From Bacteroidales bacterium (GTDB lineage Bacteria; Bacteroidota; Bacteroidia; Bacteroidales; UBA10428), in assembly GCA_016934395.1 (NCBI GenBank), contig JAFGSZ010000063.1:1-36498 (forward strand): 36,498 bases of DNA, in the 5' to 3' direction. Shown here piece by piece: positions 7,391 through 34,619 of the stretch. A program made the translations under genes and the position numbers. The notes beneath the pieces are model-generated. The model made no database searches, had not been told where the DNA came from, and worked only from the letters and a program-made list of their open reading frames with translations. How positions within the stretch are numbered: position 1 is the first letter of the stretch; the number at the start of each line of letters is the position of its first letter.

Positions 7391-8413
7391 ATGAAAAGAG
7401 AGAGCATAAGGAGTGCATATATCGCCATGGGTCTGTTATTCGGAAATATCATTATTGGTATTACGGGTTTTATGATTATTGAAGATTTTAACTTTACCGA
7501 TGCATTTTTTATGACGGTTATAACCATTGCTACCGTTGGATTTCGTGAGGTTCACCCTCTTTCACAGATGGGGATGTATTTTACAGCATTCTTAATTGTA
7601 TTTAGTTTTGGTATATTTGCGTATGCAGTTTCAACATTTACACGTTATGTGGTTGATGGCGCCTTCAGACACCTATATAAAACATCAAGAGTGAAGCGAA
7701 AAATTCAACGACTTAAAGACCATGTGGTTGTTTGCGGATATGGACGAAACGGCCGTCAGGCTGTTCAGGAGTTACTGGAACATAAGTTTCAGATTGTGGT
7801 AGTAGAATCAGATGAACTTTCCATTGAAAGGGTCTTGGAAAATCCTGATCTTCTTTATGTTCATGGAGATGCTACTAAAGACGAAACCCTGGACATGTGC
7901 CGGATTGATAAAGCAAAAGCGCTGATTACCACCCTGCCCGTAGATGCCGACAATTTATTTGTTGTGCTTACCGCCAGGGAAATGAATCCGCATGTTACAT
8001 TAATCAGCCGGGCATCGGATGAACATTCTGATAAGAAATTAAAACGAGCAGGGGCTACTAACGTTATCATGCCCGACAGGATTGGCGGACAGCGAATGGC
8101 AAAACTTGTTGCACAGCCTGACGTAGTTGAATTTCTTGAATTTTTAATGCTGCAAAGCGCAGAGAATGTTGCCCTTGAAGAAATTACATGCGATAAGCTC
8201 CATGCATGTTTTGATGGAAAAACAATACGCGAACTGGATATCAGAAACGAATCCGGTGCAAATATTATCGGATTAAAAAGACAAGACAGATCTTATATTA
8301 TTAATCCGTTGCCCGAAGTAATTTTAACTTCGAATGACAAACTATTTGCCCTCGGAACCAGCCGGCAGATTGGCCGGTTGAAAGTATTATTGCTGGACGG
8401 TGATATTGGTTAG
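7391..8413 (+). CDS. Two-TM potassium channel with RCK (TrkA-N/TrkA-C) domain
   Basis: Predicted inner-membrane K+ channel subunit of 340 residues: TM1 at about residues 9-30, pore loop and filter at 36-55, TM2 at about 61-83, then a cytoplasmic RCK domain. RCK-N begins HVVVCGYGRNG (G116-x-G118-x-x-G121, NAD-type nucleotide binding) with an acidic strand end VVVESD. RCK-C spans about 255-335. The filter reads T48-V-G-F-R52-E-V instead of TVGYGD. The Tyr-to-Phe change is common, but Arg in place of the last filter Gly is notable. The ATG immediately follows the DUF2851 stop. Conduction and ion preference cannot be judged from sequence. Confidence 0.87.
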   Translation: MKRESIRSAYIAMGLLFGNIIIGITGFMIIEDFNFTDAFFMTVITIATVGFREVHPLSQMGMYFTAFLIVFSFGIFAYAVSTFTRYVVDGAFRHLYKTSRVKRKIQRLKDHVVVCGYGRNGRQAVQELLEHKFQIVVVESDELSIERVLENPDLLYVHGDATKDETLDMCRIDKAKALITTLPVDADNLFVVLTAREMNPHVTLISRASDEHSDKKLKRAGATNVIMPDRIGGQRMAKLVAQPDVVEFLEFLMLQSAENVALEEITCDKLHACFDGKTIRELDIRNESGANIIGLKRQDRSYIINPLPEVILTSNDKLFALGTSRQIGRLKVLLLDGDIG

Positions 8414-8485
8414 AGATTTTAACTTTAGCTGTTTGTTATTTTCAGGAAAAACAGAACATTTAGAAATAAATTTTTTACCAAACAT

Positions 8486-8516
8486 ATTGATTTATTAAAA
8501 AAATTAAATACTTTTG
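8486..8516 (+). promoter_or_regulatory. Promoter of rpsO
   Basis: ATTG at 8486-8489, a 19-bp spacer and TACTTTTG at 8509-8516 (followed by CA) fit the Bacteroidota TTTG-N19/20-TAnnTTTG promoter well. A start near 8523 gives a leader of about 40 nt. Confidence 0.6.
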
Positions 8517-8560
8517 CAGTTCCAAATTTTTGGAGTAGTATGTTATAAATGGTTGAAAAT

Positions 8561-8830
8561 ATGTATTTAACAACAGAAAAGAAAAAAGAATTATTTAAAG
8601 AATACGGAGAGTCTGAGACAAATACCGGCTCACCTGAGAGTCAGATTGCTTTATTTAATTTTCGCATAAACCATCTTACCGAGCATTTAAAAAATAACAA
8701 AAAAGATTTCAGCACCCAGCGTGCTTTATTAAAACTCGTAGGAAAACGAAGGAGCTTACTTGATTACCTCAAAAATACCGACATCGAAAGATACAGGTCT
8801 ATCATAAAAGGTTTAAACCTGAGAAAGTAA
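8561..8830 (+). CDS. rpsO: 30S ribosomal protein S15
   Basis: Binds 16S rRNA early in assembly of the 30S platform. The sequence carries GSPESQIALFNFRINHLTEHL and LVGKRRSLLDYLK, the family core. I place the start at the ATG at 8561, which gives 89 residues beginning MYLTTEKKKELF, identical in length to E. coli S15. An ATG at 8549 would add four residues (MVEN) not seen in the family. A terminator follows directly and pnp lies next, the widespread rpsO-pnp pairing. Confidence 0.97.
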   Translation: MYLTTEKKKELFKEYGESETNTGSPESQIALFNFRINHLTEHLKNNKKDFSTQRALLKLVGKRRSLLDYLKNTDIERYRSIIKGLNLRK

Positions 8831-8856
8831 AAGGCAATAATAAATTGCCTTTTTTT
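8831..8856 (+). terminator. Intrinsic terminator after rpsO
   Basis: Perfect 8-bp stem AAGGCAAT (8831-8838)/ATTGCCTT (8844-8851), 5-nt loop and a T run to 8856, starting immediately after the rpsO stop. It probably separates rpsO from pnp, at least partly. Confidence 0.85.
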
Positions 8857-8904
8857 GTATAAATTAGGGCAATCTTAGAATATTTTATTAATAGAAAATG
8901 TAAA

Positions 8905-11058
8905 ATGTATAATTCATTTATTAAAAAAATTGATCTTGGTGATGGCAGGACAATAGAAATCGAAACCGGAAAACTGGCTAAACAGGCTGACGGTTCAGTA
9001 GTTGTAAAACTTGGTACAACAATGTTACTGGCAACAGTAGTATCTGCAAAAGAAGCAAAAGAAGATGTGGATTTTATGCCACTATCCGTGGAATATAAAG
9101 AAAAATATGCATCAGCCGGCCGTTTCCCTGGAGGCTTTCTGAAAAGAGAATCCCGGCCCGGAGATTACGAAATATTAATTTCCCGGCTCGTTGACAGGGC
9201 ATTAAGACCCTTGTTTCCGGATGACTATCATGCTGAAACATTTGTAAATATTAACCTCATCTCTGCCGATAAAGAAATTATTCCTGATGCACTGGCCGGT
9301 CTTGCAGCATCTGCAGCGCTTGCTGTATCAGACATTCCTTTTAACGGACCCATTTCAGAAGTTCGCGTAGCCCGAATTGACGGGGCATTTAAAATAAATC
9401 CTACTTTCAGTGAGCTTGAAAAAGCCGATATTGATATTATTGTGGGTGCTACCATAGATAATATTCTTATGGTTGAAGGTGAAATGAGTGAGGTTTCTGA
9501 AGCAGAAATGCTCGAAGCTATTAAAATTGCCCATACAGAAATTAAAAAACACTGCAAGGCGCTTATTGAATTTGCCGAAGAAGTGGGCAAAACAAAAAAG
9601 CGGGAATACAGTCACGAAGAAAATGATGAAGACCTTAAAAAGCTGCTCCACGACAAAACTTACCAGAAAGTATACGAGATTGCCAAAACAACCCCTGGCA
9701 AACACGAGCGCCACGATGCTTATGAAGCAGTAAAGCAGGAATTTATCGAATCCCTTTCCGACTCACTTAATGAAGGAGAAGAAGTAAACGAAGTGCTGGT
9801 AAACCGGTATTTCTTTGAAGTAGAAAAAGAAGCCGTACGTTCTTTAATTCTAAATGAAGAAGTACGTATTGACGGTAGAAAAACAAATGAGATCCGACCC
9901 ATCTGGTCAGAAGTGGATTATCTGCCCGCATCTCATGGTTCGGCAGTATTTACACGCGGTGAAACCCAGTCTTTAACTACCGTTACATTGGGCTCTAAGC
10001 TCAACGAAAAAATGATTGATGAAGTGCTGATTCAGGGATCAGATAAATTTGTGCTTCACTATAATTTTCCTCCGTTTTCTACAGGAGACGCACGCGCATC
10101 CCGCGGAATCAGTCGTCGTGAAGTAGGCCATGGCAACCTCGCACACAGGGCGTTAAAAAGAATGATCCCTGCTGAAAACAATCCATATGCTATCAGGGTT
10201 GTTTCCGACATTCTGGAGTCGAACGGCTCTTCATCTATGGCTACAGTTTGTGCAGGCACCTTAGCTCTTATGGATGCCGGAGTAAAAATAAAAAAACCTG
10301 TTTCCGGTATTGCAATGGGACTGATTACTGATACCAAAAGCGGGAAATTTGCAGTGCTTTCAGATATTCTTGGCGATGAAGACCATTTGGGCGATATGGA
10401 CTTTAAAGTTACCGGCACACGCGATGGTATTACTGCCACTCAAATGGACATAAAAGTGGAAGGATTATCATATGACATCCTTTCCAAAGCTTTAGAACAA
10501 GCTCGAGTTGGACGCTTACATATACTGGATAAAATATTAGAAACACTTCCCGAACCCCGCGAAGATTATAAACCACATGCACCAAGAATCGAACAAATAA
10601 TGATTCCAAAAGAAATGATTGGTGCTATAATTGGGCCCGGAGGAAAAGTAATCCAGGAAATACAGAATACAACCGGTGCCACCATTGTAATTGAAGAAGT
10701 AGATAGTTTTGGAGTTGTTGATATCGCAGCCGTAGATAAAGCTTCTATTGAAGAGGCCAAACGAAGAATTCAACTTATTGTTCAGGTTCCTGAAGTTGGA
10801 GAAATTTATAAAGGAAGAATAAAATCTATTGTGAATTTCGGTGCGTTTGTTGAAATCCTTCCTGGTAAAGAAGGACTCCTTCATATTTCTGAAATTAGCT
10901 GGAAAAGAGTCGGCAAAGTTGAAGATGAACTTAAAGCAGGTGATGAAATAGAAGTAAAACTGATTGATGTTGATAAAAAATCAGGCAATCTGAAACTATC
11001 AAGAAAAGCATTGCTTCCCAAACCTGAAAAAACCGAAGAAACCCGGGACAGAAATTAA
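8905..11058 (+). CDS. pnp: Polyribonucleotide nucleotidyltransferase (PNPase)
   Basis: Phosphorolytic 3'-to-5' exoribonuclease of mRNA turnover, a homotrimer. Two RNase PH domains (about residues 10-230 and 320-550) flank an all-alpha linker. The second carries FTRGETQSL, the [14 protein letters not shown] region and the [19 protein letters not shown] active-site block with its acidic cluster. A KH domain follows at about 565-625 ([15 protein letters not shown]), then an S1 domain at about 630-700 ([15 protein letters not shown]). At 717 residues it is full length. It lies just downstream of rpsO and ends before its own terminator. Confidence 0.98.
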
Positions 11059-11083
11059 TAGTATTTCTGAGAATATAAAAAAG

Positions 11084-11112
11084 ACGCTGGGTAACATACT
11101 TGGCGTTTTTTT
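11084..11112 (+). terminator. Intrinsic terminator after pnp
   Basis: Stem ACGCTGGGT (11084-11092)/ACTTGGCGT (11098-11106) has nine pairs, three of them G-U, with a 5-nt loop and seven T (11106-11112). It lies 26 bp after the pnp stop. Confidence 0.8.
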
Positions 11113-11160
11113 CATTTTTTAAAGTCGTTTCATAAAATTTAATCCGAAAAAATAGTAATC

Positions 11161-11652
11161 ATGGGTGAAACCCGATGGTCGGAAATAATCTACGATATTC
11201 TCGAAAAGAATAAAAATCAAATCTCGCACAACGATTTTAAATTCTATAATATTGCCAGGTTTCCGGTAATTGCTAAAAGTATTGAGCAACATGCAATTGG
11301 TTGCAGGATGTGTGCTGATAATAAAAATACATTTCTTGAACTTGCTGAAAATCTTCCGGATTACCTGAATCTCTCAATGGAATCAAGGAAAAATTTTGAG
11401 AAAAGTTTACACGCTATCACCGATCATTTAAAAAAAAGCCACAAGGTTCAATTTGTCTCTTATTACTTGTCGCTATTTTCTGCCGTTGGAATATTATCCG
11501 GAATTGTTTTAGGTATACTGCTTAGTATAGTTATTAAGAATCTTCCCGATATGAACATTATTCTTATCGGGGCAGGCATCGGGCTAATAACCGGAAGAAT
11601 ATGGGGATCGGTAAAAGAAAGAAAAACAAGACAACAATCCGGAAAGATTTAA
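11161..11652 (+). CDS. Small membrane protein with HxxxCxxC motif, possible orphan anti-sigma-like protein
   Basis: I do not recognise this 163-residue protein. The N-terminal part (1-95) is soluble and helical and contains H44-A-I-G-C48-R-M-C51 followed by a helix. This spacing, H-x3-C-x2-C, is that of zinc-binding anti-sigma domains (zf-HC2/ZAS). Two hydrophobic segments follow, about residues 97-126 and 131-149, and a basic tail (KERKTRQQ). Anti-sigma factors of this type usually have one membrane segment and lie beside an ECF gene; neither holds here, so the function is open. It starts 10 nt after an AAAAAATAG stretch and ends 6 bp before the deoxynucleoside kinase gene, implying co-transcription. 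Confidence 0.7.
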   Translation: MGETRWSEIIYDILEKNKNQISHNDFKFYNIARFPVIAKSIEQHAIGCRMCADNKNTFLELAENLPDYLNLSMESRKNFEKSLHAITDHLKKSHKVQFVSYYLSLFSAVGILSGIVLGILLSIVIKNLPDMNIILIGAGIGLITGRIWGSVKERKTRQQSGKI

Positions 11653-11658
11653 AATTTA

Positions 11659-12288
11659 ATGAATCACAACTACATCGCTATTGAAGGAAATATTGGGGTT
11701 GGCAAAACCACCCTGGCCAAAATGCTGGCCAGAGACCTTAATACCCATCTGGTACTTGAAGAGTATAATAAAAATCCATTTCTTTCCTTATTTTACAACC
11801 AACCCGAAAAATTTGCCTTTCAACTTGAATTTACATTTCTGTCGCAACGTTTGCAGCAGTTATCAAAAATATTTTCAGGCAATAAAAGTTCATCTGCACA
11901 TTATATTACCGATTATGAATTTTCCAAAAGCCTGATCTTTTCCGGAGTAACTTTATTAAAAGCGGACTTTAAAATTTTAGCCTCTGTTTACTTAAAGTTA
12001 TTGCCCTTAATTCCCCAACCCGATTTATATATTTATTTGTACAATTCACCAGATCAGTTGTTAAAAAATATAAGAAAGCGTGGAAGATCATATGAGCAAG
12101 GTGTTACTGCTGATTACCTTGAAAAAATTGAACAGGGTTACCGTGAATATATAAATAATAAGAAGGGTTATAGGATACTGAAGATCAATCTTTGTCAATA
12201 CAATTTTATCAGAGATAATAAACAATATAAAAATCTCGTTACATACCTGTTAACAGAAAATTCTTCAGCTGGAGTATATGAATTTTAG
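11659..12288 (+). CDS. Deoxynucleoside kinase (dNK/dCK family)
   Basis: Predicted salvage enzyme phosphorylating a deoxynucleoside with ATP; deoxyadenosine or deoxyguanosine is likely from the family. The P-loop is IEGNIGVGKTT (G10 to T18). An EEY follows, with the DYEFSKSLIFSG region where related kinases have DRS. The lid-type segment is NIRKRGRSYEQGV. The usual Glu-Arg-Ser is read here as DYEFSKS, a modest departure. Length 209 residues is normal for bacterial members. It lies 6 bp after the small membrane protein. Substrate specificity cannot be set from sequence. Confidence 0.87.
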   Translation: MNHNYIAIEGNIGVGKTTLAKMLARDLNTHLVLEEYNKNPFLSLFYNQPEKFAFQLEFTFLSQRLQQLSKIFSGNKSSSAHYITDYEFSKSLIFSGVTLLKADFKILASVYLKLLPLIPQPDLYIYLYNSPDQLLKNIRKRGRSYEQGVTADYLEKIEQGYREYINNKKGYRILKINLCQYNFIRDNKQYKNLVTYLLTENSSAGVYEF

Positions 12289-12566
12289 TAACCATTAAGT
12301 ATTTCGAGACAAAACTGTTTTTTTGTTAATAATTCTTTAAAAATTTGTAGATTTATTATTAACAATTTTATTTTTTATCTGTTATTAATTTATTGTGCTG
12401 ATTTATAGAATGTTTTATATTTTTTCTTATTTTTATTATAAAATTCAATTTGACACAGTTTTAGAATTTTTTTTTATTGAAAACATTAGTAAGTTTGTAT
12501 TATGTTCTGTAATTAATCCAATTAGTAAATAATTTAAAGTAATTACTTAAATAACAATTTAAAATT
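12289..12566. promoter_or_regulatory. AT-rich leader region before the OmpA-like lipoprotein gene
   Basis: This 278-bp gap contains no ORF of note. The only clear signal is TAAGTTTG at 12490-12497, a good -7 element, with no convincing TTTG 19-20 bp upstream. Transcription from it would give a leader of about 60 nt. A long T run at 12467-12475 lies just upstream. Confidence 0.4.
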
Positions 12567-14291
12567 ATGAAGCGAATAAAACAAAACTATCTATCATCTT
12601 TCGTTATTGCGGCTTTTGTTTTAGCCAGCTGCGGTGGCGTTAATAAGATGGTTGACACTGCTAATACCGTAACCTACGATGTTCAACCCAGCCCGCTTGA
12701 AACACATGCAGGAGAAGTTGAAGTAACCATTAAAACCGTTTTCCCGGAAAAATATTTTAACAAAAAAGCTATTGTTGTAGCTACTCCAATGTTAAAATAT
12801 GAAGGCGGTCAAACAGAATTTGGCTCAACGACCCTACAGGGTGAAAAAGTTGATGCAAATAATAAAGTTATCCCTGTTGCTGGTGGAAATTACACATTTA
12901 CAGGTAAAATTCCTTATGATGAAGCTATGTTGAGCTCAGATCTCGTTGTAGAAATGTCAGCTAGTATTGGTGATAAAGATCCGGTTGTTATTCCCGGAAT
13001 AAAAATTGCTGATGGTGTTATTGCCACATCAACACTTGTTGAGATTACTCCCAAGTCAATTTTAGTTGGTGATAAATTTGAACGTGTTATCCCCGAAAAT
13101 TATGAAGCAGATATCAAATATGTGATTAATAAATCTGAAGTTCGCAATTCAGAACTTAAAAAAGATGAAATTAAAAGCTTCCAGGATAAACTAGCTGCTG
13201 CAAAAGCTGCTGAAAGAAAAGAATTTAAATCAGCTTCTATTTCCGCATATGCTTCACCAGACGGAGCATATGATTTAAATGAAAAACTGGCAGAAAAAAG
13301 AAAAGAATCAGCAAACCTGTATTTTACACGTACTTTGAAGAAAAATGAAATTGAAGCTTTGCAAAACGCTGATTTCCTTAAGTTGATGTCTACAGCAGAA
13401 GACTGGGATGGTTTTAAAGCCCTGATGGAAAAATCAGATATTCAGGATAAAGACCTGATCTTACGTGTACTTTCTATGTATTCTGATCCTGCTGTTAGAG
13501 AAAAAGAAATTAAAAACATCGCTGAAGCATTCGAAGAAATTAAAGAACAGGTACTTCCTGAATTAAGAAGATCTAAAATGAATGTTACTGTTGATGTTGT
13601 AGGATATTCAGATGAAGAACTACAGGCTTTGGCAAAAAATAATCCTGATACGTTAAAACTTGAAGAAATTCTTTATTCAGCAACTTTATTTGATAATTTA
13701 GGTGATAAAATTGCTGTTTACAAAGTTGCAGCTAAAAATTTCCCCAAATGTTTCAGAGCAATAAATAACGTAGGATATGTTGCCATGGAAATGGGAAATG
13801 TTGCTGAAGCAAAAGCTGCTTTCGAGCAGGCTAAATCTCTTATGGATAATGACGTTGTGAAAAACAACTTAGGTGCAGTAGCTTTATTGGAAGGTGATGT
13901 TGCAGGTGCCGAAACTTTATTCAATTCAGCAATGGGAGCAGGCGATGTTGTTAGTTATAACCTTGGAATTGTTAAAATTATTCAGGGTGACTATGCTGCA
14001 GCAGTAAATTATTTTGGAAATAAAGCTTCCTATAATGCAGCTTTGGCACAATTATTAAATAATAATTCTGAAAAATCTTTGTCCACTTTAGGTGAACTTG
14101 GTGATTCAGACGATGCTATGGTATATTACCTTAAAGCAGTTGCCGGTGCTCGTGCCGGAAAAGAAGATGTAGTTCTAAGCAATCTCAGAACAGCAACCGG
14201 TAAAGACAGCGCTTTAAAAGCTCATGCTCTTAAAGATCTTGAATTTGCTAAATTTGCCGCAAGCGAGGCTTTTGGTGGAATTGTAAAATAA
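12567..14291 (+). CDS. Lipoprotein with OmpA-like and TPR regions
   Basis: Predicted lipoprotein of 574 residues. The signal peptide ends in the lipobox L19-A-S-C22. The residues after the Cys (GGVNKM) lack the acidic export signal of surface lipoproteins, so a periplasm-facing position is likely. The middle has an OmpA-type peptidoglycan-binding segment at about residues 225-260 (SAYASPDGAYDLNEKLAEKR). The C-terminal third is TPR-like, for example NNVGYVAMEMGNVAEAKAAF near 392 and NNLGAVALLEGDVAGAETLF near 430. It stands alone with a long leader, consistent with strong expression. It probably links outer membrane and peptidoglycan; the exact role is unknown. Confidence 0.78.
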   Translation: MKRIKQNYLSSFVIAAFVLASCGGVNKMVDTANTVTYDVQPSPLETHAGEVEVTIKTVFPEKYFNKKAIVVATPMLKYEGGQTEFGSTTLQGEKVDANNKVIPVAGGNYTFTGKIPYDEAMLSSDLVVEMSASIGDKDPVVIPGIKIADGVIATSTLVEITPKSILVGDKFERVIPENYEADIKYVINKSEVRNSELKKDEIKSFQDKLAAAKAAERKEFKSASISAYASPDGAYDLNEKLAEKRKESANLYFTRTLKKNEIEALQNADFLKLMSTAEDWDGFKALMEKSDIQDKDLILRVLSMYSDPAVREKEIKNIAEAFEEIKEQVLPELRRSKMNVTVDVVGYSDEELQALAKNNPDTLKLEEILYSATLFDNLGDKIAVYKVAAKNFPKCFRAINNVGYVAMEMGNVAEAKAAFEQAKSLMDNDVVKNNLGAVALLEGDVAGAETLFNSAMGAGDVVSYNLGIVKIIQGDYAAAVNYFGNKASYNAALAQLLNNNSEKSLSTLGELGDSDDAMVYYLKAVAGARAGKEDVVLSNLRTATGKDSALKAHALKDLEFAKFAASEAFGGIVK

Positions 14292-25647: not shown

Positions 25648-28509
25648 ATGACAACTGGTAAATTTGCTATCCGTCATATCGGTCCCCGCGATCATGAAAT
25701 AAAACATATGCTTTCTTCTGTTGGCGTTAATTCTTTAGATGAACTTATAAAAAAAACCATACCCGAAACCATATTATTAGATAAAGAACTTGATCTTCCG
25801 GAAGGGATTAGTGAATATGACTATTTAAAGCAGATTAAAAAAATAGCGTCTAAAAACAAAGTATTTAAATCGTACATCGGGATGGGCTATTATAACACTA
25901 TTTTTCCGGCCGTCATTCAACGAAATGTTCTTGAAAACCCGGGTTGGTATACATCTTACACACCATATCAGGCTGAAATTTCACAAGGCCGTCTGGAGGC
26001 ACTCCTTAATTTCCAGACCGTAATTACCGAACTTACCGGAATGGAAATTGCCAATGCTTCGCTCCTTGATGAATCTACAGCTGCTGCCGAAGGAATGATT
26101 ATGCTTTTTAATGCCAGATCGCGTGAGGAGGTAAAAAACGGACATCAGATGTTTTTTGTCGACTCAAATATATTCCCCCAAACTCTGGATGTTTTAAAAA
26201 CCCGATCTAAACCTCTTGGAATAGAACTGGTTGTTGGTGACTATAAAAGAATTAAATGGGATTCCGGATTTTTTGGCGCTTTTGTGCAATATCCTGCAGG
26301 TGATGGGAAAATAGAAGATTATAAAGATTTCACACAACAGGCCCATCAAAACGGAACACATGTAATTGTAGCTGCTGATATTTTAAGCCTTGTATTACTA
26401 ACACCTCCCGGAGAATGGGATGCAGATGTAGTTGTGGGCTCAACTCAGCGTTTGGGTATCCCTATGGGCTTTGGAGGACCACATGCTGCATATTTTGCCA
26501 CACTTGAAAAATTTAAACGAAATATTCCGGGAAGAATTATTGGTGTTTCTTCCGATCGATTGGGAAATACTGCGTTACGCATGGCATTACAAACCCGCGA
26601 ACAACATATTAAAAGAGAAAAAGCCACCTCAAATATTTGTACTTCACAGGCATTACTTGCTATAATGGCTGGTTTTTATTCAATCTATCATGGTCCGGAC
26701 GGATTAAAAAACATTGCAGAACAAATTCATCAAACAGCTGGCGCACTTTCGGAGAAATTAAAAGAATTGGGATATCAGCTTGAAAATACTGACTTTTTTG
26801 ATACCCTAAAAATACTTCTACCTGAAAATATTTCCAGTAGAGATGTAAAAATTCTGGCACTGGAAAGAGATATTAATTTCAGATACTTTAATAATTCTAC
26901 CATTGGTATTAGCATTGATGAAACTACCGGCATTAAAGATCTGAATAAAATCGTTGAGGTTTTCTCTTATGCTGCCAAACATCCTGTAAGAAATGTAATA
27001 CAATTGGATAATAAAATCTATTTTAACTCACAATTCCTGAGAAAATCAGAATTTTTAAAACAGAATGTTTTCTACAGGTACAGGTCTGAAACTGAATTAA
27101 TGCGCTATATTAAAAGACTCGAACGCAAAGATATTTCACTAACTCACTCCATGATTTCACTGGGATCGTGTACCATGAAGTTAAATGCAGCATCAGAATT
27201 GTTCCCCCTTTCCTGGTCTGAATTTGGTGAAATTCATCCCTTTGCTCCAATCGATCAGACAGAAGGATATCAGCAATTGTTTCATGAACTTGAAAAGTTT
27301 CTCCGGATCATTACAGGCTTTGAAGCTATATCTTTTCAACCTAATTCAGGTGCTGCAGGAGAATATACAGGGCTAATGGTAATCCGCTCTTTTCACGAAA
27401 AAAATAATGAGGGACATAGAAACATAGTTTTAATACCTGCTTCTGCACATGGTACAAATCCTGCAAGTGCTGTAATGGCAGGTATGAAGGTTATCGTAAT
27501 AAAATGTGATGATCAGGGGAATATTGACATTGAAGATTTAAAAAATAAAGCTGTAGAAAATAAAAATGAGCTTGCTGCATTAATGGTCACTTATCCGTCT
27601 ACACATGGTGTATTCGAAGCTGATATCATTGAAATGATTGATATTGTGCATAAGAACGGTGGGCAGGTTTATATGGACGGGGCCAACATGAATGCACAGG
27701 TCGGGCTAACCAGTCCGGCTAAAATTGGAGCTGATGTCTGTCATTTAAACCTTCATAAAACATTTGCTATTCCTCATGGCGGAGGCGGCCCGGGGGCCGG
27801 TCCGATAGCAGTGGCAGAACATCTTATTGAATTTCTGCCAACACACCCGGTGGTTGAAACCGGAGGCATAAACGGGGTAACGGCAGTGGCCGGTGCCCCA
27901 TGGGGAAGTGCCAGCATACTTACTATTGCTCATGCCTACTGCACAATGATGGGTAAAGAAGGCTTAGCATATTCTTCTAAAATTGCTATTCTGAATGCAA
28001 ATTATATTGCTGCAAAACTTAAAGATTACTTTCCTGTTTTATATACCGGCTCCAATGGATTTGTGGCTCACGAGATGATCATTGATTGCAGACCGTTTAA
28101 GCAACCTTACAACATTACAGAAACAGATATTGCCAAAAGATTAATGGATTACGGTTTTCATGCTCCTACATTATCCTTTCCTGTGCATGGCACATTAATG
28201 GTTGAACCCACCGAAAGTGAATCTTTGCAGGAACTTAACCTGTTTATTGAGACCATGATATCAATTTATAAAGAAATCCTTCAGATTAACAAAGTAAATT
28301 GGAACTCCAATATTCTAAAAAACGCTCCTCATATTGAAGGTGAAGTTATAAAATCCGACTGGTCATTCGAATATAGCCGCGAGCAGGCTGCTTTTCCTCT
28401 TCCCTGGATTCGGGAAAATAAATACTGGCCTGCAGTAACAAGGATAGATGACGCTCTTGGGGATCGTAATTTAGTATGTACATGTGCCCCAATTGCCCAT
28501 TATTTGTAA
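25648..28509 (+). CDS. gcvP: Glycine dehydrogenase (decarboxylating), P-protein
   Basis: PLP-dependent first enzyme of the glycine cleavage system, decarboxylating glycine and passing aminomethyl to the H-protein lipoyl arm. A fused two-half protein of 953 residues, as in E. coli. The PLP lysine is K704 in [18 protein letters not shown]. The N-terminal [13 protein letters not shown], the RQ-type helix [20 protein letters not shown] (residues 110-129) and the C-terminal [10 protein letters not shown] are diagnostic. The other system genes (gcvT, gcvH) are not nearby. The 45-bp leader is too short for a glycine riboswitch. Confidence 0.98.
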
Positions 28510-28717: not shown

Positions 28718-29332
28718 TTGAATAAACAAATTAAGTTTACCGAGAAAGAGCTAGTTAATGGTATCTTAAATGGACAGAACGATGTGCTTCAATTAGTATA
28801 TGATAGAAGCTTTAAATCTGTCCGACATCTTGTTATTTCAAATAGTGGAAAAGAAGTAGATGCGGAAGATATTTTTCAGGAAGCATTTGTTGTGCTGTTT
28901 AATAAATTACGTGATAAGAATTTTAAATTAACGTGTTCTTTAAATACGTATTTATACTCTGTTTCACGGTTATTATGGCTGAAAGAACTCGAATCGCGAA
29001 AAAACAGAAAAACCAATTTATCTGAATGCGATGAGTTTGTAAACCTTAGTGATGATCTGTATAAACTGGCCTTTAAAAACGAAAGGCTAAATTTATACAG
29101 AGAGATTTTTGAAGAATTAAGTGAAGATTGCAAAAAGGTTCTGCAGTTGTTTCTTAACGATGTCCCGATAACAGAAATTACTAAAATAATGGGATTTAGT
29201 TCTGATCAACATACAAAAAACAGGAGATATCGCTGCAAAAAATCACTTATTAACAAAATTAGAAGTAGTAAAGAATATAAAGAATTAAAAAATGAAAACT
29301 ACAAAGACGATCGAGAGATACCTCGATGGTGA
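28718..29332 (+). CDS. ECF-type sigma factor of the TPR-CHAT locus
   Basis: RNA polymerase sigma factor of 204 residues. Region 2 lies at about 20-95, with VDAEDIFQEAFVVLFNKL and CSLNTYLYSVSRLLWLKEL. Region 4 lies at about 125-180, with ITEITKIMGFSSDQHTKNR and YRCKKSL. The start is TTG at 28718: a TAG stop is directly upstream in frame and no suitable ATG follows. Its last 41 bp overlap the anti-sigma-like gene, so the two are translationally coupled. I recall sigma factors with this CSxxTYLYSVxRxLWLKEL block lying beside TPR or CHAT genes in other Bacteroidota. Its regulon is unknown. Confidence 0.9.
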   Translation: MNKQIKFTEKELVNGILNGQNDVLQLVYDRSFKSVRHLVISNSGKEVDAEDIFQEAFVVLFNKLRDKNFKLTCSLNTYLYSVSRLLWLKELESRKNRKTNLSECDEFVNLSDDLYKLAFKNERLNLYREIFEELSEDCKKVLQLFLNDVPITEITKIMGFSSDQHTKNRRYRCKKSLINKIRSSKEYKELKNENYKDDREIPRW

Positions 29333-30044
29333 GATGAGCGGAGAGGAGTTGAAAGATTTTATGGCTGAGCTTAAGCATAATGATAAATTGGCTCAACTTG
29401 TAGAACTTCACAAAGAGATTAATGAAAGTATTATAGATGATCAATTATTTGCCTTTAGAAAAAATGTAAAATACTTACATACTCAAATTCAAAATAAAAA
29501 GCATATTGATATTAACAGGAATAGTTCTTTTTTCTCAAGAAATAAAATTGCCATAGCAGCGGCCATTACAATTTTAATATTATTTTCAGGTGCTTTGACA
29601 ATATTTAAAATCGGACGATTGTCATCCGAAGAAATATTCAGTAAATATTATACTGCTTATAATCCTGATGTCGTTGTTCGTTCAGAAAATAATATTAACG
29701 GAGGATTACACCTGGCTATTCAACTTTATCAGGAAACAGACTTTAGTACTTCGTTTGAAGTTTTACAGAATTTTATTAAATCTAACAAAAACGATGTAGT
29801 AGCAAATTTTTACCTTGCTATGAACGCCATGGAACTCAACCGTATGGAAACGGCAATTCAAAATTTCAAATTTATAATAGATAATGATTTACAGCCTTTT
29901 GTGCAACATGCACAATGGTATTTAAGCCTTTGCTACTTAAAAACAGACCAGAAGGAACTTGCCACAGAACAACTTGAGCAAATAATAGCACAACATTCTT
30001 ATTATTTCGAAAAAGCAAAAGATTTATTAAAGTCGATTAATTAA
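29292..30044 (+). CDS. Membrane anti-sigma-like protein with periplasmic TPR domain
   Basis: Predicted single-pass protein of 250 residues. The cytoplasmic part (1-84) begins TIERYLDGEMSGEELKDFM, the helical, cysteine-free start common to Bacteroidota anti-sigma-like proteins. One membrane helix spans about 85-106 (KIAIAAAITILILFSGALTIF region). The outer part (138-250) holds about three TPR-like helix pairs, for example FYLAMNAMELNRMETAIQNF and WYLSLCYLKTDQKELATEQL. It overlaps the sigma gene by 41 bp, so the pair is very probably sigma and anti-sigma. It converges on the TPR-CHAT gene with a shared TTAA holding both stop codons. Confidence 0.82.
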   Translation: MKTTKTIERYLDGEMSGEELKDFMAELKHNDKLAQLVELHKEINESIIDDQLFAFRKNVKYLHTQIQNKKHIDINRNSSFFSRNKIAIAAAITILILFSGALTIFKIGRLSSEEIFSKYYTAYNPDVVVRSENNINGGLHLAIQLYQETDFSTSFEVLQNFIKSNKNDVVANFYLAMNAMELNRMETAIQNFKFIIDNDLQPFVQHAQWYLSLCYLKTDQKELATEQLEQIIAQHSYYFEKAKDLLKSIN

Positions 30045-33000
30045 TCTTTTTTTATTTTCCTCACATAATACATTGAAAGAGCAAGTAATAAGAAAAAACC
30101 ACAAAAAATAAAGATCCCGATTCTTTTATTATAAATTGGAGAATCATCTCCAAATATTACATAGCCGGCCCAATAATACGGATGCAACTTAACAGGATCA
30201 GCATGATTTATATACTCCAGTTTTGCCAATTGCAACGCTTCATCTTTAGGCTTTTTTTTAGATAAATACTTATAAAAACCATTCATAAGATCTGCACTGG
30301 CTTTATCAGCAACCGACCATTTAGTAAGTACCAAAGACGGGCAACCAGCATACATAAAACTCCTGGCCAGACTTAATATTCCCTCACTTCTGTTCAATTT
30401 ACCGGAACCTGTATTACATCCGCTTAAAACCACCATATTGGCATTCAGAACCAGATTATAAACCTCAAAAACATACAATGAACCGTCTTCAGTTGTATCT
30501 TTTTCATGATCGAAAATTAGCCTTGAATACAACGGATTTTTATCATCCAATATCGTATGCAGGGCCAGATGGATCATTGAATATCCGCCGGCATATCTTT
30601 TGAAGTTACTTTCATTGGCATCCAAACCTAAATAGAACTTCCCTTTATACAATTTTTTAATAGCTTCTATTTCATCCTTTGCCCCTGCAAGTTGTTTGAA
30701 TTTTATTGTATCGGTAATTCCCGATCTTAGATTTACATATCCTTCTGAATTAATAACCAAATCCTGACCGTAATCCGGTGCAAAACCCAACATACGGGTT
30801 CCTCTGGTTTTATTTGGTTTTCGGCTAAGCAATACGGAGCCTGAGTATGCATAACGAACCGGGAATTTTTTAATAAGATATGGCAAACCTGCGTAATCAA
30901 TATGGCTTGTATTAATAGAATCTGAATACAGCAATATTTCAAAAGGGACCTGGCTTAATATTTCATCGGGCACGATGATCAGTTTTTTATTTGTTATTTC
31001 CTTTTCAACAGGTTCAATCAATAATTGATAAAGTTTTCTTGAGCATGTTGTTAAATCGGTGTAGTCCTTAAAATTAAATTCTCCATACCGGTGATCCTTC
31101 AATAATCTGTGGAGATCAGCAACATTTTGTTTATAATCCTCATATGCTTCTATTTCGGAACAAGATATACTTTTCCCTGTTATAACAAATATAAATACTT
31201 CTTTTCTACCAACCACATATTCAATAAGGGCTTCATTATCTGATAATTTATTTTGAATCTCAGGTAACGGTGGAACATTGTAATTATATTTTAAATTATA
31301 ATATTCAGGGTATTTTTTTTCCATATAACTGATTAAAGTATCATAGGCAATGTTTGTTTTCATAAGATTGGATTCCATCTGTTTTACTTCCTCTGAAAAA
31401 AGAACCTCACTCCTGTCTAAACGATTTAGGTAATGATATAAATTGCTTAGCTGACTTTTCAGTTGAATTTCCTTTTGGAGCAATGTATCCGGAATATTAG
31501 CCAAAGTTTTTGCATTTGATTCATTAATGTAAAACATAAGTGTGGCCGACTTAATTTTTTCTGCATGCTCAAATGCTTTTTTTAAATAATAATCATCACC
31601 GGTTTTTTCATAGACATTCATTGCCAGAATAATTGCATTATTAGAATTTATTTTTACCTGTTCTAGAAAATCTAATTTTGTAGTTTCATGGGAATAGTTG
31701 CGGAACATACTCTCCTGGTATGCAACAGCAAGATCATAACATTTATAACTTTCTTTTAGATCTTTAATATTATCAGACTGATATTTATAATAGAAATAAA
31801 GGTCATAGGCTTTATCTGTAATAATATTATATGTTGTTTGTTTATTTCCTGATTGTTCAAGTGTGGGATTTGAATAAATGCTGGTGTCTGAAAATTGATC
31901 ATTAGCTTTTATCAGGGCTTTCTGAAGAAAGTGTAAAGCTTCTTCGTAGTTTTTAATATTAAAGTAATAATCCGATAAACTGGTTAGTAAACCTGCAACA
32001 TAATAGTTATAAATTCGACTAACATTCCCGCTTATTTTATATGCCTCAGATAAGCTGGCAAATTGTTCAGAGGGATTGTTTATTTGCTCATAATAATAGG
32101 CTTTGGAATGATGAAGATAAAGCCAGTTTATGCTGTCTGTTATGTTATATTCTTTAAGAGTATTTTCTGCCATTTGGTAATAATACTCCGCACTTTTAGA
32201 ATTACTTTTTGTAGCATATGCATTTCCAATTTTAATATAGTTTATAAAAAGGTGATAGGGATTGCTCTTAAACAGTGTGCTTTTTTTTAGATATTCGATG
32301 GCCTGTTCATATTTACCCTGGGTATAATATATTGTTCCAAGTTTGACTAAAACCGGTAATTTTAAATCGTTCAAGTCTTCATAAAAGCCGGAATATTTAA
32401 GCGCTAATTCACAGTATTCAATAGCCTTATCATATTCGTCTAATGAATTATATACACTTGCATAATTACTATATATTTCTCCTATTCTTGAGTTATCATA
32501 TCCGAATTTATTTATAATTATTCTTGTAGTATTATCCAAATCGCTTAAAGCTTCACTATAGTTCTTGGATAATACATTGTACCCGTAACTCGCCAGATAA
32601 TAATTAATTAACTTCGGATTATTTTTATCAGGGAAACGAATAATATAGGCTCTAACTGAATCAATTATCGGCTGTATGTCAACCGGATCATAGTTAAAAG
32701 GCAAAAAAGTCTTCCTGTATATTGTTTTTATAGTTTTATCTATGGCTGCCAGAGGCTCTGAATTATATATATATAAAGATAAATTAAAGTTCTCTTCTGA
32801 AGCCTTGTAATTTTGCAGTCCCAGATAAGTGTACCCAAGATAGTGCCGGTATTCAAATAGAATATCTTTCCCTAATAATTTTTCTGATGTTGCATCATCC
32901 GTCAATTTAAGGGTATTCAACAACTTTAAAGATTTTTCGAATTCGGAAAGACTGATGTAAATCTTACTTCCGATAATTTTTAATCTGGCCTTTGCTTTTG

Positions 33001-33337
33001 CATCTATGATATTCTGATTTATATATAACTTTTCTGCCTGATAATAATAATATCTTGAGCTATCCAACCTCCCCATTTCAAGGTAAATATCACTAAGAGA
33101 TAATTCTACTTGTGATGCTGTAAAATATTCCTTTGACTGATAAAACAACGAGAGGGATGATTTATAGTGCGACAAGGCACTCATATAGAAACCGTCGTTA
33201 TAGTTGTTTTCAGCCAGGAATTTCAGGTTCCTTGCTTGTTGGATTCGTTCTTCTCTTAATCCGGGGATTTCTGCAACAGCATTATAAAATACTAAAGAAA
33301 AAATAAGCCAAATTAGAATCTTCCTGAATAATTTCAT
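30041..33337 (-). CDS. Exported, membrane-anchored TPR-CHAT caspase-like protein
   Basis: CHAT-domain (caspase HetF-associated) cysteine protease candidate of 1098 residues. A signal peptide covers about 1-22 (ILIWLIFSLVFYNAVA). Many TPR-like helix pairs fill roughly 25-560, for example YASVYNSLDEYDKAIEYCEL and LVKLGTIYYTQGKYEQAIEY. A helical linker leads to the CHAT domain, about 770-1065. The dyad is intact: H927 in HLALHT and C974 in VVLSGCNTGSG, with GILSLARSFMYAG and LTKWSVAD behind. A C-terminal helix (1073-1092) ends in RKIKKD, so TPR and CHAT should lie in the periplasm. Its location suggests a partner role with the sigma/anti-sigma pair. Protease activity is inferred from family and dyad. 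Confidence 0.9.
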   Translation of the reverse strand: MKLFRKILIWLIFSLVFYNAVAEIPGLREERIQQARNLKFLAENNYNDGFYMSALSHYKSSLSLFYQSKEYFTASQVELSLSDIYLEMGRLDSSRYYYYQAEKLYINQNIIDAKAKARLKIIGSKIYISLSEFEKSLKLLNTLKLTDDATSEKLLGKDILFEYRHYLGYTYLGLQNYKASEENFNLSLYIYNSEPLAAIDKTIKTIYRKTFLPFNYDPVDIQPIIDSVRAYIIRFPDKNNPKLINYYLASYGYNVLSKNYSEALSDLDNTTRIIINKFGYDNSRIGEIYSNYASVYNSLDEYDKAIEYCELALKYSGFYEDLNDLKLPVLVKLGTIYYTQGKYEQAIEYLKKSTLFKSNPYHLFINYIKIGNAYATKSNSKSAEYYYQMAENTLKEYNITDSINWLYLHHSKAYYYEQINNPSEQFASLSEAYKISGNVSRIYNYYVAGLLTSLSDYYFNIKNYEEALHFLQKALIKANDQFSDTSIYSNPTLEQSGNKQTTYNIITDKAYDLYFYYKYQSDNIKDLKESYKCYDLAVAYQESMFRNYSHETTKLDFLEQVKINSNNAIILAMNVYEKTGDDYYLKKAFEHAEKIKSATLMFYINESNAKTLANIPDTLLQKEIQLKSQLSNLYHYLNRLDRSEVLFSEEVKQMESNLMKTNIAYDTLISYMEKKYPEYYNLKYNYNVPPLPEIQNKLSDNEALIEYVVGRKEVFIFVITGKSISCSEIEAYEDYKQNVADLHRLLKDHRYGEFNFKDYTDLTTCSRKLYQLLIEPVEKEITNKKLIIVPDEILSQVPFEILLYSDSINTSHIDYAGLPYLIKKFPVRYAYSGSVLLSRKPNKTRGTRMLGFAPDYGQDLVINSEGYVNLRSGITDTIKFKQLAGAKDEIEAIKKLYKGKFYLGLDANESNFKRYAGGYSMIHLALHTILDDKNPLYSRLIFDHEKDTTEDGSLYVFEVYNLVLNANMVVLSGCNTGSGKLNRSEGILSLARSFMYAGCPSLVLTKWSVADKASADLMNGFYKYLSKKKPKDEALQLAKLEYINHADPVKLHPYYWAGYVIFGDDSPIYNKRIGIFIFCGFFLLLALSMYYVRKIKKD

Positions 33338-33466: not shown

Positions 33467-33574
33467 ATGGAAAAAATTTTAAAAAAAAACGTTCAGGTAA
33501 GAACAGATCCTTATCCCAAACCAACGCCTCCGCCAGATCCGGAGCCACCACCTGGATTAGACAAAATGCATTAA
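33467..33574 (+). CDS. 35-residue proline-rich peptide
   Basis: I do not recognise this short gene. It encodes a basic N-terminal third (MEKILKKNVQVR) and a stretch, residues 15-29, with ten prolines (core PKPTPPPDPEPPP), ending GLDKMH. It has no signal peptide, membrane segment or cysteine. Support for a real gene is the promoter-like motif upstream, the strong terminator 11 bp after the stop, its own strand orientation between two minus-strand genes, and a composition unlike random AT-rich sequence. It is divergent from the TPR-CHAT gene. Possible roles are protease substrate, signalling peptide or adaptor; none is shown. No strong ribosome-binding site is seen, which is normal here. Confidence 0.62.
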   Translation: MEKILKKNVQVRTDPYPKPTPPPDPEPPPGLDKMH

Positions 33575-33641: not shown

Positions 33642-34619
33642 TTAGTCAAGTATATTATCTATAAGTTCAGCAAGTATGCTTTTTATTGAGTAATTCATTG
33701 ACTTTATTTGTTTTGGAACGATACTATTTGCACTCATGCCCGGTATTGTATTAATTTCAAGCAAGTATAGGATATTATTACTAAAAATATAATCAATTCG
33801 CACGATACCCCTGCAATTTAATAAGTCATATATTTTTGATGACAGGTTCTTACAATTATTCTCAATATCGACACTGATCCGGGCAGGAGTAATTTCATCA
33901 GACATGCCATCGGTATATTTTGCTTCGTAATCAAAAAACTCTTTTTTACTTACTATTTCAGTTATTGGAAAAATATATTCATTCCATTTCGATTTAAAGA
34001 CACCACAAGTTAATTCTATGCCTTTGATGTATTTCTCTATCAATACTTCATTATCTTCTTTCAGCGCTTCCTGAATGGCATCCTCAAGGTTATGAATGGT
34101 ATTTACTTTGGTAACACCAAAACTTGACCCCCCCTCATTGGGTTTTACAAAACAGGGTATACCGACTTTTTTTTCTATTTCTTCGATATCTACCTTGCTA
34201 TTTTCTTTTATCAATACTGAATCGGCTGTATCCACACCAAAATTCTTCAAATAACTTTTACAAAAATGTTTATTAAAAGTCAGCGAAGAAGTTAACACAT
34301 CGCACGAAGTATAGGGCAGACCAAGCATATCAAAATATCCCTGTAATTTTCCATCTTCGCCGGGTGTTCCATGTATCATAATAAGTGCGCAATCAAATCC
34401 TGTTTTTGTGTTATCAACAGTAAACGTGAAATCGTCTTTATTTACCGATATATTGTTTTTGCCTTCAACATCTATACTCCATTCTAATCCTTTTATCTCT
34501 ACCCTGTAAGGGATGTATTTTTCCTTATCCAGATTATCAATAATGAGTTGTGCACTTTTTACCGATATTACATATTCGGATGAATTGCCCCCTGTGATAA
34601 TTGCAATTTTCTTTTTCAT
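33642..34619 (-). CDS. ddl: D-alanine--D-alanine ligase
   Basis: ATP-grasp ligase making the D-Ala-D-Ala dipeptide of peptidoglycan. The N-terminal AIITGGNSSEYVISVKSA, the IHGTPGEDGKLQGYFDMLG block, FVKPNEGGSSFGVTKV and the C-terminal metal-binding LLEINTIPGMSANSIVPKQ are all family hallmarks. Length 325 residues is typical. The start ATG at 34619 gives the expected MKKKIAIITGG. It is isolated from other cell-wall genes. Its neighbour on one side is the proline-rich peptide gene; I considered a peptide-modifying ATP-grasp role, but the Ddl motifs are too complete to favour it. Confidence 0.93.
   Translation of the reverse strand: MKKKIAIITGGNSSEYVISVKSAQLIIDNLDKEKYIPYRVEIKGLEWSIDVEGKNNISVNKDDFTFTVDNTKTGFDCALIMIHGTPGEDGKLQGYFDMLGLPYTSCDVLTSSLTFNKHFCKSYLKNFGVDTADSVLIKENSKVDIEEIEKKVGIPCFVKPNEGGSSFGVTKVNTIHNLEDAIQEALKEDNEVLIEKYIKGIELTCGVFKSKWNEYIFPITEIVSKKEFFDYEAKYTDGMSDEITPARISVDIENNCKNLSSKIYDLLNCRGIVRIDYIFSNNILYLLEINTIPGMSANSIVPKQIKSMNYSIKSILAELIDNILD

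Follow-up and report, generated by a model that had tools for sequence, protein, structure and literature searches.

A sigma factor, a membrane-spanning anti-sigma candidate and a TPR-CHAT protease as a possible proteolytic switch at the inner membrane of Bacteroidales

A 36,498-nucleotide stretch of DNA from a Bacteroidales bacterium (assembly GCA_016934395.1, contig JAFGSZ010000063.1; this whole stretch is hereafter called the window) carries three adjacent genes encoding an extracytoplasmic function (ECF)-type sigma factor, an anti-sigma candidate with one transmembrane (TM) segment and a TPR-CHAT protease. We consider it likely that this triad forms a CRISPR-independent switch at the inner membrane, in which the periplasmic CHAT protease would cut the anti-sigma candidate after Arg130 and free the sigma factor. 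Arg130 is proposed as the P1 residue, and Glu889 of the CHAT protein as the acid of the S1 pocket. The anti-sigma candidate is suggested to be the substrate because residue 130 and Glu889 covary, because the site drifts where CHAT is missing, and because the anti-sigma candidate is truncated in two relatives in which no CHAT match was found.

The conservation of the anti-sigma candidate was analyzed in 89 different rows with at least 150 aligned residues, taken from 108 aligned stretches. Arg130 was invariant in 89/89 and lies within a variable linker; the only equally conserved position was W209 in the TPRs (88/88, with one gap). In 83 of the 89, Arg130 was followed by Ser, Gly, Ala or Thr. 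In a set of 199 anti-sigma candidates, the linker contained Arg, Lys or Met and, directly after it, a small or polar residue in 182/183 rows from genomes with CHAT versus 5/12 from CHAT-less genomes (Fisher 3e-9), and Arg alone in 169/183 versus 3/12; four rows from genomes with only a weak CHAT match were excluded from this two-by-two test, and the remaining rows not marked as CHAT-less were taken as having CHAT. As judged from these sequences, the residue-130 site drifts in genomes without CHAT.

To pair the two proteins, we used the 141 CHAT rows (of 200) that had a residue in column 889 and an aligned anti-sigma candidate from the same locus. The rule for typing residue 130 also accepted Glu or Ile after the basic residue, an extension made once L087 (FTRIES) had come out as Lys. 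Glu889 was kept in 130/130 CHAT proteins with an R-type anti-sigma candidate and lost in 9 of the 11 with a non-R one, including the Met-type loci L276, L277, L255, L174, L306, L309 and L311. Among 346 CHAT columns, Glu889 was the best associated (1e-12), followed by D1011 (1e-6), and in the reverse scan column 130 was the anti-sigma column that best matched the Glu889 state. When the alignment column alone was read, Arg stood at 130 in 117/132 partners of E-type and 0/9 partners of non-E CHAT proteins. A control set was drawn from 20 regions around CHAT genes without a strong anti-sigma match nearby (21 CHAT genes, of which L206 is cut at its C terminus); in it, Glu889 was present in 19/19.

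Parsimony on trees built without column 889 gave four changes of Glu889 and five to six of residue 130; one of these trees was a 71-row subset in which the R rows L182, L257, L253 and L192 were left out and older R rows were sampled randomly. In independent pairs, of which there were only two to six, residue 130 and Glu889 never changed in opposite directions, and each clade without Glu889 has non-R anti-sigma candidates. The chance that four random changes on 279 branches would all fall on the six branches with a change at residue 130 is about 6e-8, a rough figure that treats the branches as equal and assumes, as the clades suggest, that the changes share branches.

The two truncations were found in genomes G003 and G018 (rated 94% and 87% complete), in which a search for CHAT gave no match. 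Both genomes keep the sigma gene (loci L167 and L168) beside anti-sigma candidates of 67 and 94 residues that end before the TM segment. By gene sizes, L168 is the same as L046, except that CHAT and the TM-TPR part of the anti-sigma candidate are missing.

Co-occurrence was quantified in a family and order sample of 99 genomes, of which 52 had an anti-sigma match at E<=1e-3 and 42 at E<=1e-10 (termed strong). CHAT was present in 42/42 genomes with a strong match versus 20/57 others (Fisher 6e-13) and, outside the bacterium's own family, in 23/23 versus 19/53 (Fisher 2.8e-8), both tests ignoring ancestry. Phylum-wide, CHAT (1e-15) was found in 45/47 genomes with a full-length anti-sigma candidate versus 52/151, where full-length matches were chosen by eye as spanning position 35 or earlier to 226 or later, excluding G174 (76-250); in family f86 the figures were 14/26 versus 3/34. 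CHAT genes are common in themselves, being present in 62/99 of the family and order genomes and 97/198 of the phylum-wide genomes.

Conserved linkage had been set as a test beforehand, and the genes stay linked in several layouts and in more than one family of the phylum. At least 38 of the 62 strong anti-sigma places have a CHAT gene within 6 kb, and most others stand on contigs for which no CHAT is listed; the count is a lower bound, and in G001, G048 and G085 the CHAT gene of the contig is more than 10 kb away. The sigma and anti-sigma genes may be convergent with CHAT, often after an open reading frame (ORF) of ~950 aa that equals the window's glycine dehydrogenase in size (for example L039, L041, L046, L047), or without this ORF (L077). 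Elsewhere the sigma gene faces CHAT and the anti-sigma gene is divergent on the far side of CHAT (L050, L054, L055, L057, L071-L074); L056 has this layout with two intervening genes, and L058 begins likewise until the contig end interrupts it. In L063 and L067, CHAT is separated by one gene. Loci without CHAT in the examined stretch also exist (for example L051, L061, L062 and L068); the absence of CHAT in L053, where a run of N lies inside the anti-sigma gene, was not counted. From the CHAT side, 59 of 80 alignment loci hold an anti-sigma and/or sigma match (58 excluding the weak L134) and 21 do not, a proportion biased upwards because the search alignment was built from linked CHAT proteins. 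Chance neighbourhood of the three genes was ruled out by co-occurrence and linkage together.

The original prediction had described a sigma gene that overlaps a one-TM, TPR-bearing protein and a convergent TPR-CHAT gene, and this description was borne out. All three reading frames are open where it placed them, the sigma and anti-sigma genes overlap by 41 bp, and the stop codons of the anti-sigma gene (30042-30044) and the CHAT gene (30041-30043, minus strand) interlock. The sigma protein matched TIGR02937 with 48.3 bits (cut-off 42.9); Pfam Sigma70_r2 scored 23.4 bits, slightly below its cut-off of 24, and Pfam region 4 was unmatched. The anti-sigma candidate has a single hydrophobic segment at 80-98 by hydropathy, modelled by AlphaFold as a helix at 84-105, and C-terminal to it a TPR match (PF13174, 28.8 bits, cut-off 26.3). 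With its downstream overlap of the sigma gene, short cytoplasmic N-terminal part and one TM segment (segment and orientation predicted), it fits the pattern of transmembrane anti-sigma factors. Its model has a mean predicted local distance difference test score (pLDDT) of 86.7, with 72-76 in blocks 121-140 and 94-95 in the flanking blocks. The 50 Foldseek matches listed for this model were TPR, TPR-like or designed helical proteins; Csx30 was not directly compared.

The TPR-CHAT protein matched PF12770 with 201 bits (cut-off 24). It bears hydrophobic segments at 3-21, corresponding to the signal peptide, and at 1068-1086, corresponding to the C-terminal anchor, followed by the tail RKIKKD, and the H927/C974 dyad is intact, all as foreseen. 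From its sequence it is a CHAT protease of predicted activity. In the predicted fold (mean pLDDT 81.6), the catalytic His and Cys stand at or after strands, matching the clan CD fold.

Membrane topology was predicted from hydropathy and charge across homologues. Exactly one segment was found in 101/103 anti-sigma candidates, and, where a segment was present (102 proteins), 91% carried more positive charge on its N-terminal side. Among CHAT homologues longer than 850 aa, 99/105 had the C-terminal segment, 98 of these 99 with a positively charged tail; the N-terminal segment exceeded the threshold in only 74/105, and the listed homologues below it include some that start at a contig edge and some with weaker signal-like N termini. 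The segment positions and the charge bias point to an anti-sigma candidate with its N terminus inside and C terminus outside, and to an exported CHAT protein held by its C-terminal anchor. Both TPR regions and the CHAT domain are therefore predicted to lie outside the inner membrane, as originally expected. A cytoplasmic CHAT domain was rejected for the window gene on its hydropathy. In L187 and L188, an internal segment precedes the CHAT domain and the topology may differ.

In the control set, 2 of the 20 CHAT proteins with a complete C terminus, both in L194, had a hydrophobic segment within 75 residues of the C-terminal end; L194 comes from G067, a genome without an anti-sigma match. The control regions L192, L195, L199 and L201 hold weaker anti-sigma candidates beside CHAT proteins without the anchor, and the anchor is therefore no strict mark of linkage.

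The proposed pocket, which like the cut site was not named in the original prediction, was compared with other clan CD proteases, whose S1 specificity is attributed to helix alpha-1 and loops L4 and L5 (PMC4357240). An acid on alpha-1 serves the P1 Arg: Asp163 of gingipain forms a bidentate salt bridge, and Asp95 of metacaspase and Asp365 of MALT1 are also on alpha-1 (PMC4357240). In our model, Glu889 lies on helix 884-894, between strands 849-853 and 899-903, and this helix would match alpha-1 of clan CD proteases. By our own reading, D1011, which follows strand 1001-1005, is in the L5 region. The Lys-type loci L244 and L281 lack Glu889 and have Glu at 1011.

Taken together, the following course is proposed. 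The N-terminal cytoplasmic domain of the anti-sigma candidate would tether the ECF sigma factor to the membrane, and an envelope signal would be sensed by the TPR part of CHAT, by the TPRs of the anti-sigma candidate or by both. Periplasmic CHAT would then act as the site-1 protease and cut after Arg130, in a loop ~25 residues outside the TM helix; the TPR head would be shed, an RseP-type intramembrane protease would cut the stub and the sigma factor would be released. We infer that the cut takes place, that it activates, and that a signal and a site-2 step belong to this course. The bacterium's own genome has one gene for an M50 intramembrane protease (PF02163, 169 bits, C1:626-1894).

Several points weigh against this reading. 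No cleavage has been observed, and the topology is a reading of hydropathy only. The covariation comprises nine non-E rows and about four independent changes, with which a sign test cannot reach 0.05. There are exceptions: the Lys-type loci L244 and L281 have lost Glu889 but carry Glu at 1011, a pattern that no simple rule of one acid accounts for, whereas Glu889 is kept in L175 (Lys) and in L180 (Gln, scored by the rule as Met). The motif was sought in a window of ~20 residues, and the background of the Arg motif elsewhere in the same proteins is 23%. Five of the 12 CHAT-less rows still satisfy the Arg/Lys/Met rule, and 11 of the 12 are from f86 and therefore not independent. In that family, 12/26 genomes with a full-length anti-sigma candidate gave no CHAT match, so the anti-sigma candidate can exist without CHAT. 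G003 and G018 share one genus code, and their truncations may therefore be one event. The M50 point is weak, because M50 proteases were found in 14/14 control genomes. Finally, Csx30 is cleaved without any single essential residue and the size of the loop mattered (PMC10028731), so that a CHAT enzyme may work without strict recognition of P1.

Three other explanations were weighed. Securin sits uncut in the active site of separase, and the anti-sigma candidate could likewise be a pseudosubstrate inhibitor whose Arg130 loop lies uncut in the CHAT active site, the partners regulating each other by binding. The covariation of residue 130 with Glu889 fits contact as well as cleavage, and the CHAT model resembles separase-securin entries; however, the small residue after Arg130 in 83/89 suits a cut and the dyad is intact in 141/141 paired CHAT proteins, although both remain compatible with binding without cutting. 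We regard this explanation as unlikely. We give only a small chance to the idea that CHAT is a co-regulated neighbour or a member of the sigma regulon that cuts another envelope protein, while other proteases cut the anti-sigma candidate. The presence of CHAT in 20/57 genomes without a strong anti-sigma match indicates that CHAT has other partners, and some anti-sigma candidates persist without CHAT, but the covariation, the drift of the site without CHAT and the stub proteins of L167 and L168 would be left unexplained.

Arg130 might instead cap the TPR domain structurally, and shared ancestry would then account for its match with Glu889. Even L199, a weak homologue in which a long stretch follows the TM segment, has Arg-Gly directly ahead of its TPRs, and the independent changes are few. 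However, the TPRs persist in CHAT-less genomes while residue 130 drifts, blocks 121-140 are predicted with lower pLDDT than the blocks on either side, and every clade that lost Glu889 carries non-R anti-sigma candidates; we find a structural cap very improbable.

The best structural match of the CHAT model was Csx29 (Z 28.7, 532 residues, root-mean-square deviation (rmsd) 8.2). Separase 5fc2 matched with Z 27.3 and rmsd 3.1 over 307 residues, and DdvA (PDB 8rot, 8rw5) ranked second in Foldseek, with Z 22.1 and rmsd 11.4 (VIA-align). When the CHAT region was searched pairwise against solved structures, no match emerged; sequence profiles matched Csx29 and DdvA. In Craspase, the target of Csx29 is Csx30, which inhibits an ECF-type sigma factor; the cut falls in a flexible loop, between residues 427 and 429 (PMC10028731); other studies, as related in PMC9729208, place the cut after L407. 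Craspase (Csx29, Csx30 and CASP-sigma) and the window share a TPR-CHAT protein, an inhibitor of an ECF-type sigma factor and a cleavage proposed to relieve inhibition. In contrast to Craspase, the window's protease and the outer part of its anti-sigma candidate are predicted to be periplasmic and membrane-anchored, the proposed P1 is Arg with an acidic S1 residue, and the window has no gRAMP-sized ORF. Of the features of type III-E Craspase, the window has the TPR-CHAT fold, and no gRAMP stands beside it among the listed window ORFs.

RseA is a one-TM anti-sigma factor with a periplasmic domain, and DegS is a PDZ serine protease. The RseA, DegS and RseP system, known for regulated proteolysis (PMC10028731), shares with the proposal made here a one-TM anti-sigma factor and a periplasmic site-1 cut followed by an RseP-type cut. 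In the place of DegS, the present proposal has a cysteine protease of caspase fold that carries a TPR region of its own. In its proposed working the triad resembles Craspase and RseA/DegS, but we class it with neither. Separase (clan CD, C50) likewise has a caspase-like domain behind helical repeats and takes Arg at P1 (PMC4357240); its D2151, the reader of the P1 Arg, corresponds to K670 in the Craspase TPR-CHAT (PMC9729208). In contrast to separase, the window's CHAT is a bacterial envelope protein, and by our own reading its proposed S1 acid, on alpha-1, is differently placed from D2151.

By its PDB entry and the profile match, DdvA combines a transmembrane anti-sigma factor and a CHAT domain. 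In Myxococcus, DdvA is the anti-sigma factor of the ECF sigma factor DdvS (PMC4374960), and from the name we take the DdvA of 8rot and 8rw5 to be this protein; no paper on the structure was among the open PMC matches listed. The anti-sigma and CHAT-containing parts of DdvA apparently form one chain, whereas the window has two genes. CHAT genes near ECF54 sigma genes have already been published: the ECF54 context includes carboxypeptidase, subtilase and CHAT genes, and proteolytic control is proposed (PMC8999054), a likeness to the window in gene context. As described there, however, no anti-sigma factor is proposed for ECF54, whereas in the window a TM anti-sigma candidate is the putative substrate. 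Caspase systems whose neighbourhood includes ECF sigma and TPR (DUF1822) genes, for which activation by an autopeptidase is proposed (PMC8195603), also bring together a caspase-type peptidase, an ECF sigma factor and a TPR protein; as described there, neither a CHAT domain nor an anti-sigma factor is named, whereas the window has a CHAT protein and an anti-sigma candidate. Our phrase searches of open PMC papers yielded the Craspase papers and no title on a triad of sigma factor, TM anti-sigma factor and TPR-CHAT protein.

The features of the triad and its neighbours are listed in Table 1. The assembly of this genome comprises 155 contigs, and a PADLOC scan of the three triad proteins gave no defence family. 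gRAMP/Cas7-11 is a very large protein. The original prediction had called the system CRISPR-free, which stands for the window to the extent that no listed ORF is of Cas7-11/gRAMP size, ORFs running off the window ends being unlisted and excluded, and no CRISPR search of the genome was made; the longest listed ORF, of 1098 aa, is CHAT itself.

Table 1. Positions in the window of the triad, its key codons and its neighbouring genes.
Feature	Coordinates	Strand	Remarks
ECF-type sigma factor, 204 aa, TTG start	28718..29332	+	TIGR02937 above cut-off; Pfam Sigma70_r2 just below
Anti-sigma candidate, 250 aa	29292..30044	+	cytoplasmic helical domain 1-70, TM ~84-105, periplasmic TPRs ~137-249 (predicted)
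Anti-sigma candidate Arg130 codon, proposed P1	29679..29681	+	loop 120-136 between juxtamembrane helix and TPRs
TPR-CHAT protease, 1098 aa	30041..33337	-	signal peptide, TPRs, CHAT 765-1064, C-terminal TM anchor ~1068-1097
His927 codon, catalytic dyad	30557..30559	-	H in 141/141 paired CHAT proteins
Cys974 codon, catalytic dyad	30416..30418	-	C in 141/141 paired CHAT proteins
Glu889 codon, proposed S1-pocket acid	30671..30673	-	first helix (884-894) of caspase-like core
Glycine dehydrogenase gene	25648-28509		neighbour of triad (profile scan)
D-alanine-D-alanine ligase gene	33642-34619		neighbour of triad (profile scan)

A second locus of the same genome, L058 on contig C124, encodes a sigma factor 38% identical to that of the window; this sigma gene is convergent with a CHAT gene, with interlocking stops, and the CHAT gene ends at the contig edge. 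Variation was also seen among the anti-sigma proteins. Those of L099, L101, L121 and L130 have 466-516 aa, and by eye their cytoplasmic part seems to consist of repeated copies of the N-terminal domain ahead of the TM segment, perhaps several sigma-binding sites. In L187 and L188, a distinct Cys-rich anti-sigma candidate, with motifs that we take to be of zinc-binding type, stands between the sigma match and the CHAT gene with the internal hydrophobic segment, possibly as a second design of the same switch. A secreted caspase-like protein (L195, 3988-4860; judged by eye) lies between CHAT and the sigma-anti-sigma pair.

A short proline-rich ORF divergent from CHAT was found within 500 bp upstream in 6/112 CHAT loci versus 0.2% of letter-shuffled sequences. 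These ORFs are located at 33467-33574 (+) in the window, 10163-10285 in L046, 5523-5636 in L048, 2813-2896 in L039, 4409-4543 in L047 and 5156-5293 in L180; in the L180 peptide, Gly-Gly, which is typical of leader peptides, precedes the proline part. Downstream of the anti-sigma gene, L071 has a small histidine-kinase gene (8257-9216, HisKA and HATPase domains) and, beyond it, a C39-peptidase ABC exporter and an HlyD-type protein (9370-12896). Genes of ~300 aa, the size of the L071 kinase, follow divergent anti-sigma genes in several other loci, a likeness of size only. The L071 exporter and the proline-rich ORFs are hints of a peptide signal.

CHAT substrates in the literature examined are Csx30 and, by mention, gasdermin (PMC10028731, PMC9729208). 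With the triad, one CHAT branch gains a likely substrate, a likely cut site at residue level and a likely specificity pocket. If the proposed switch is true, a caspase/separase-type enzyme would join the site-1 proteases of sigma control, the logic of Craspase would be widespread without CRISPR, and the triad would offer an enzyme-substrate pair whose specificity has seemingly been rewired several times in nature. More tentatively, and in a reading that we judge less likely than not, the envelope triad might be a widespread CRISPR-independent form of TPR-CHAT sigma control, the source or sister of the type III-E version and of DdvA, in which each pair has a matched lock-and-key (Arg, Lys or Met at 130; Glu889, Asp1011). 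If so, this lock-and-key code may separate parallel switches in one cell, and the small proline-rich peptides encoded near CHAT in some loci could be what the TPR sensor binds.

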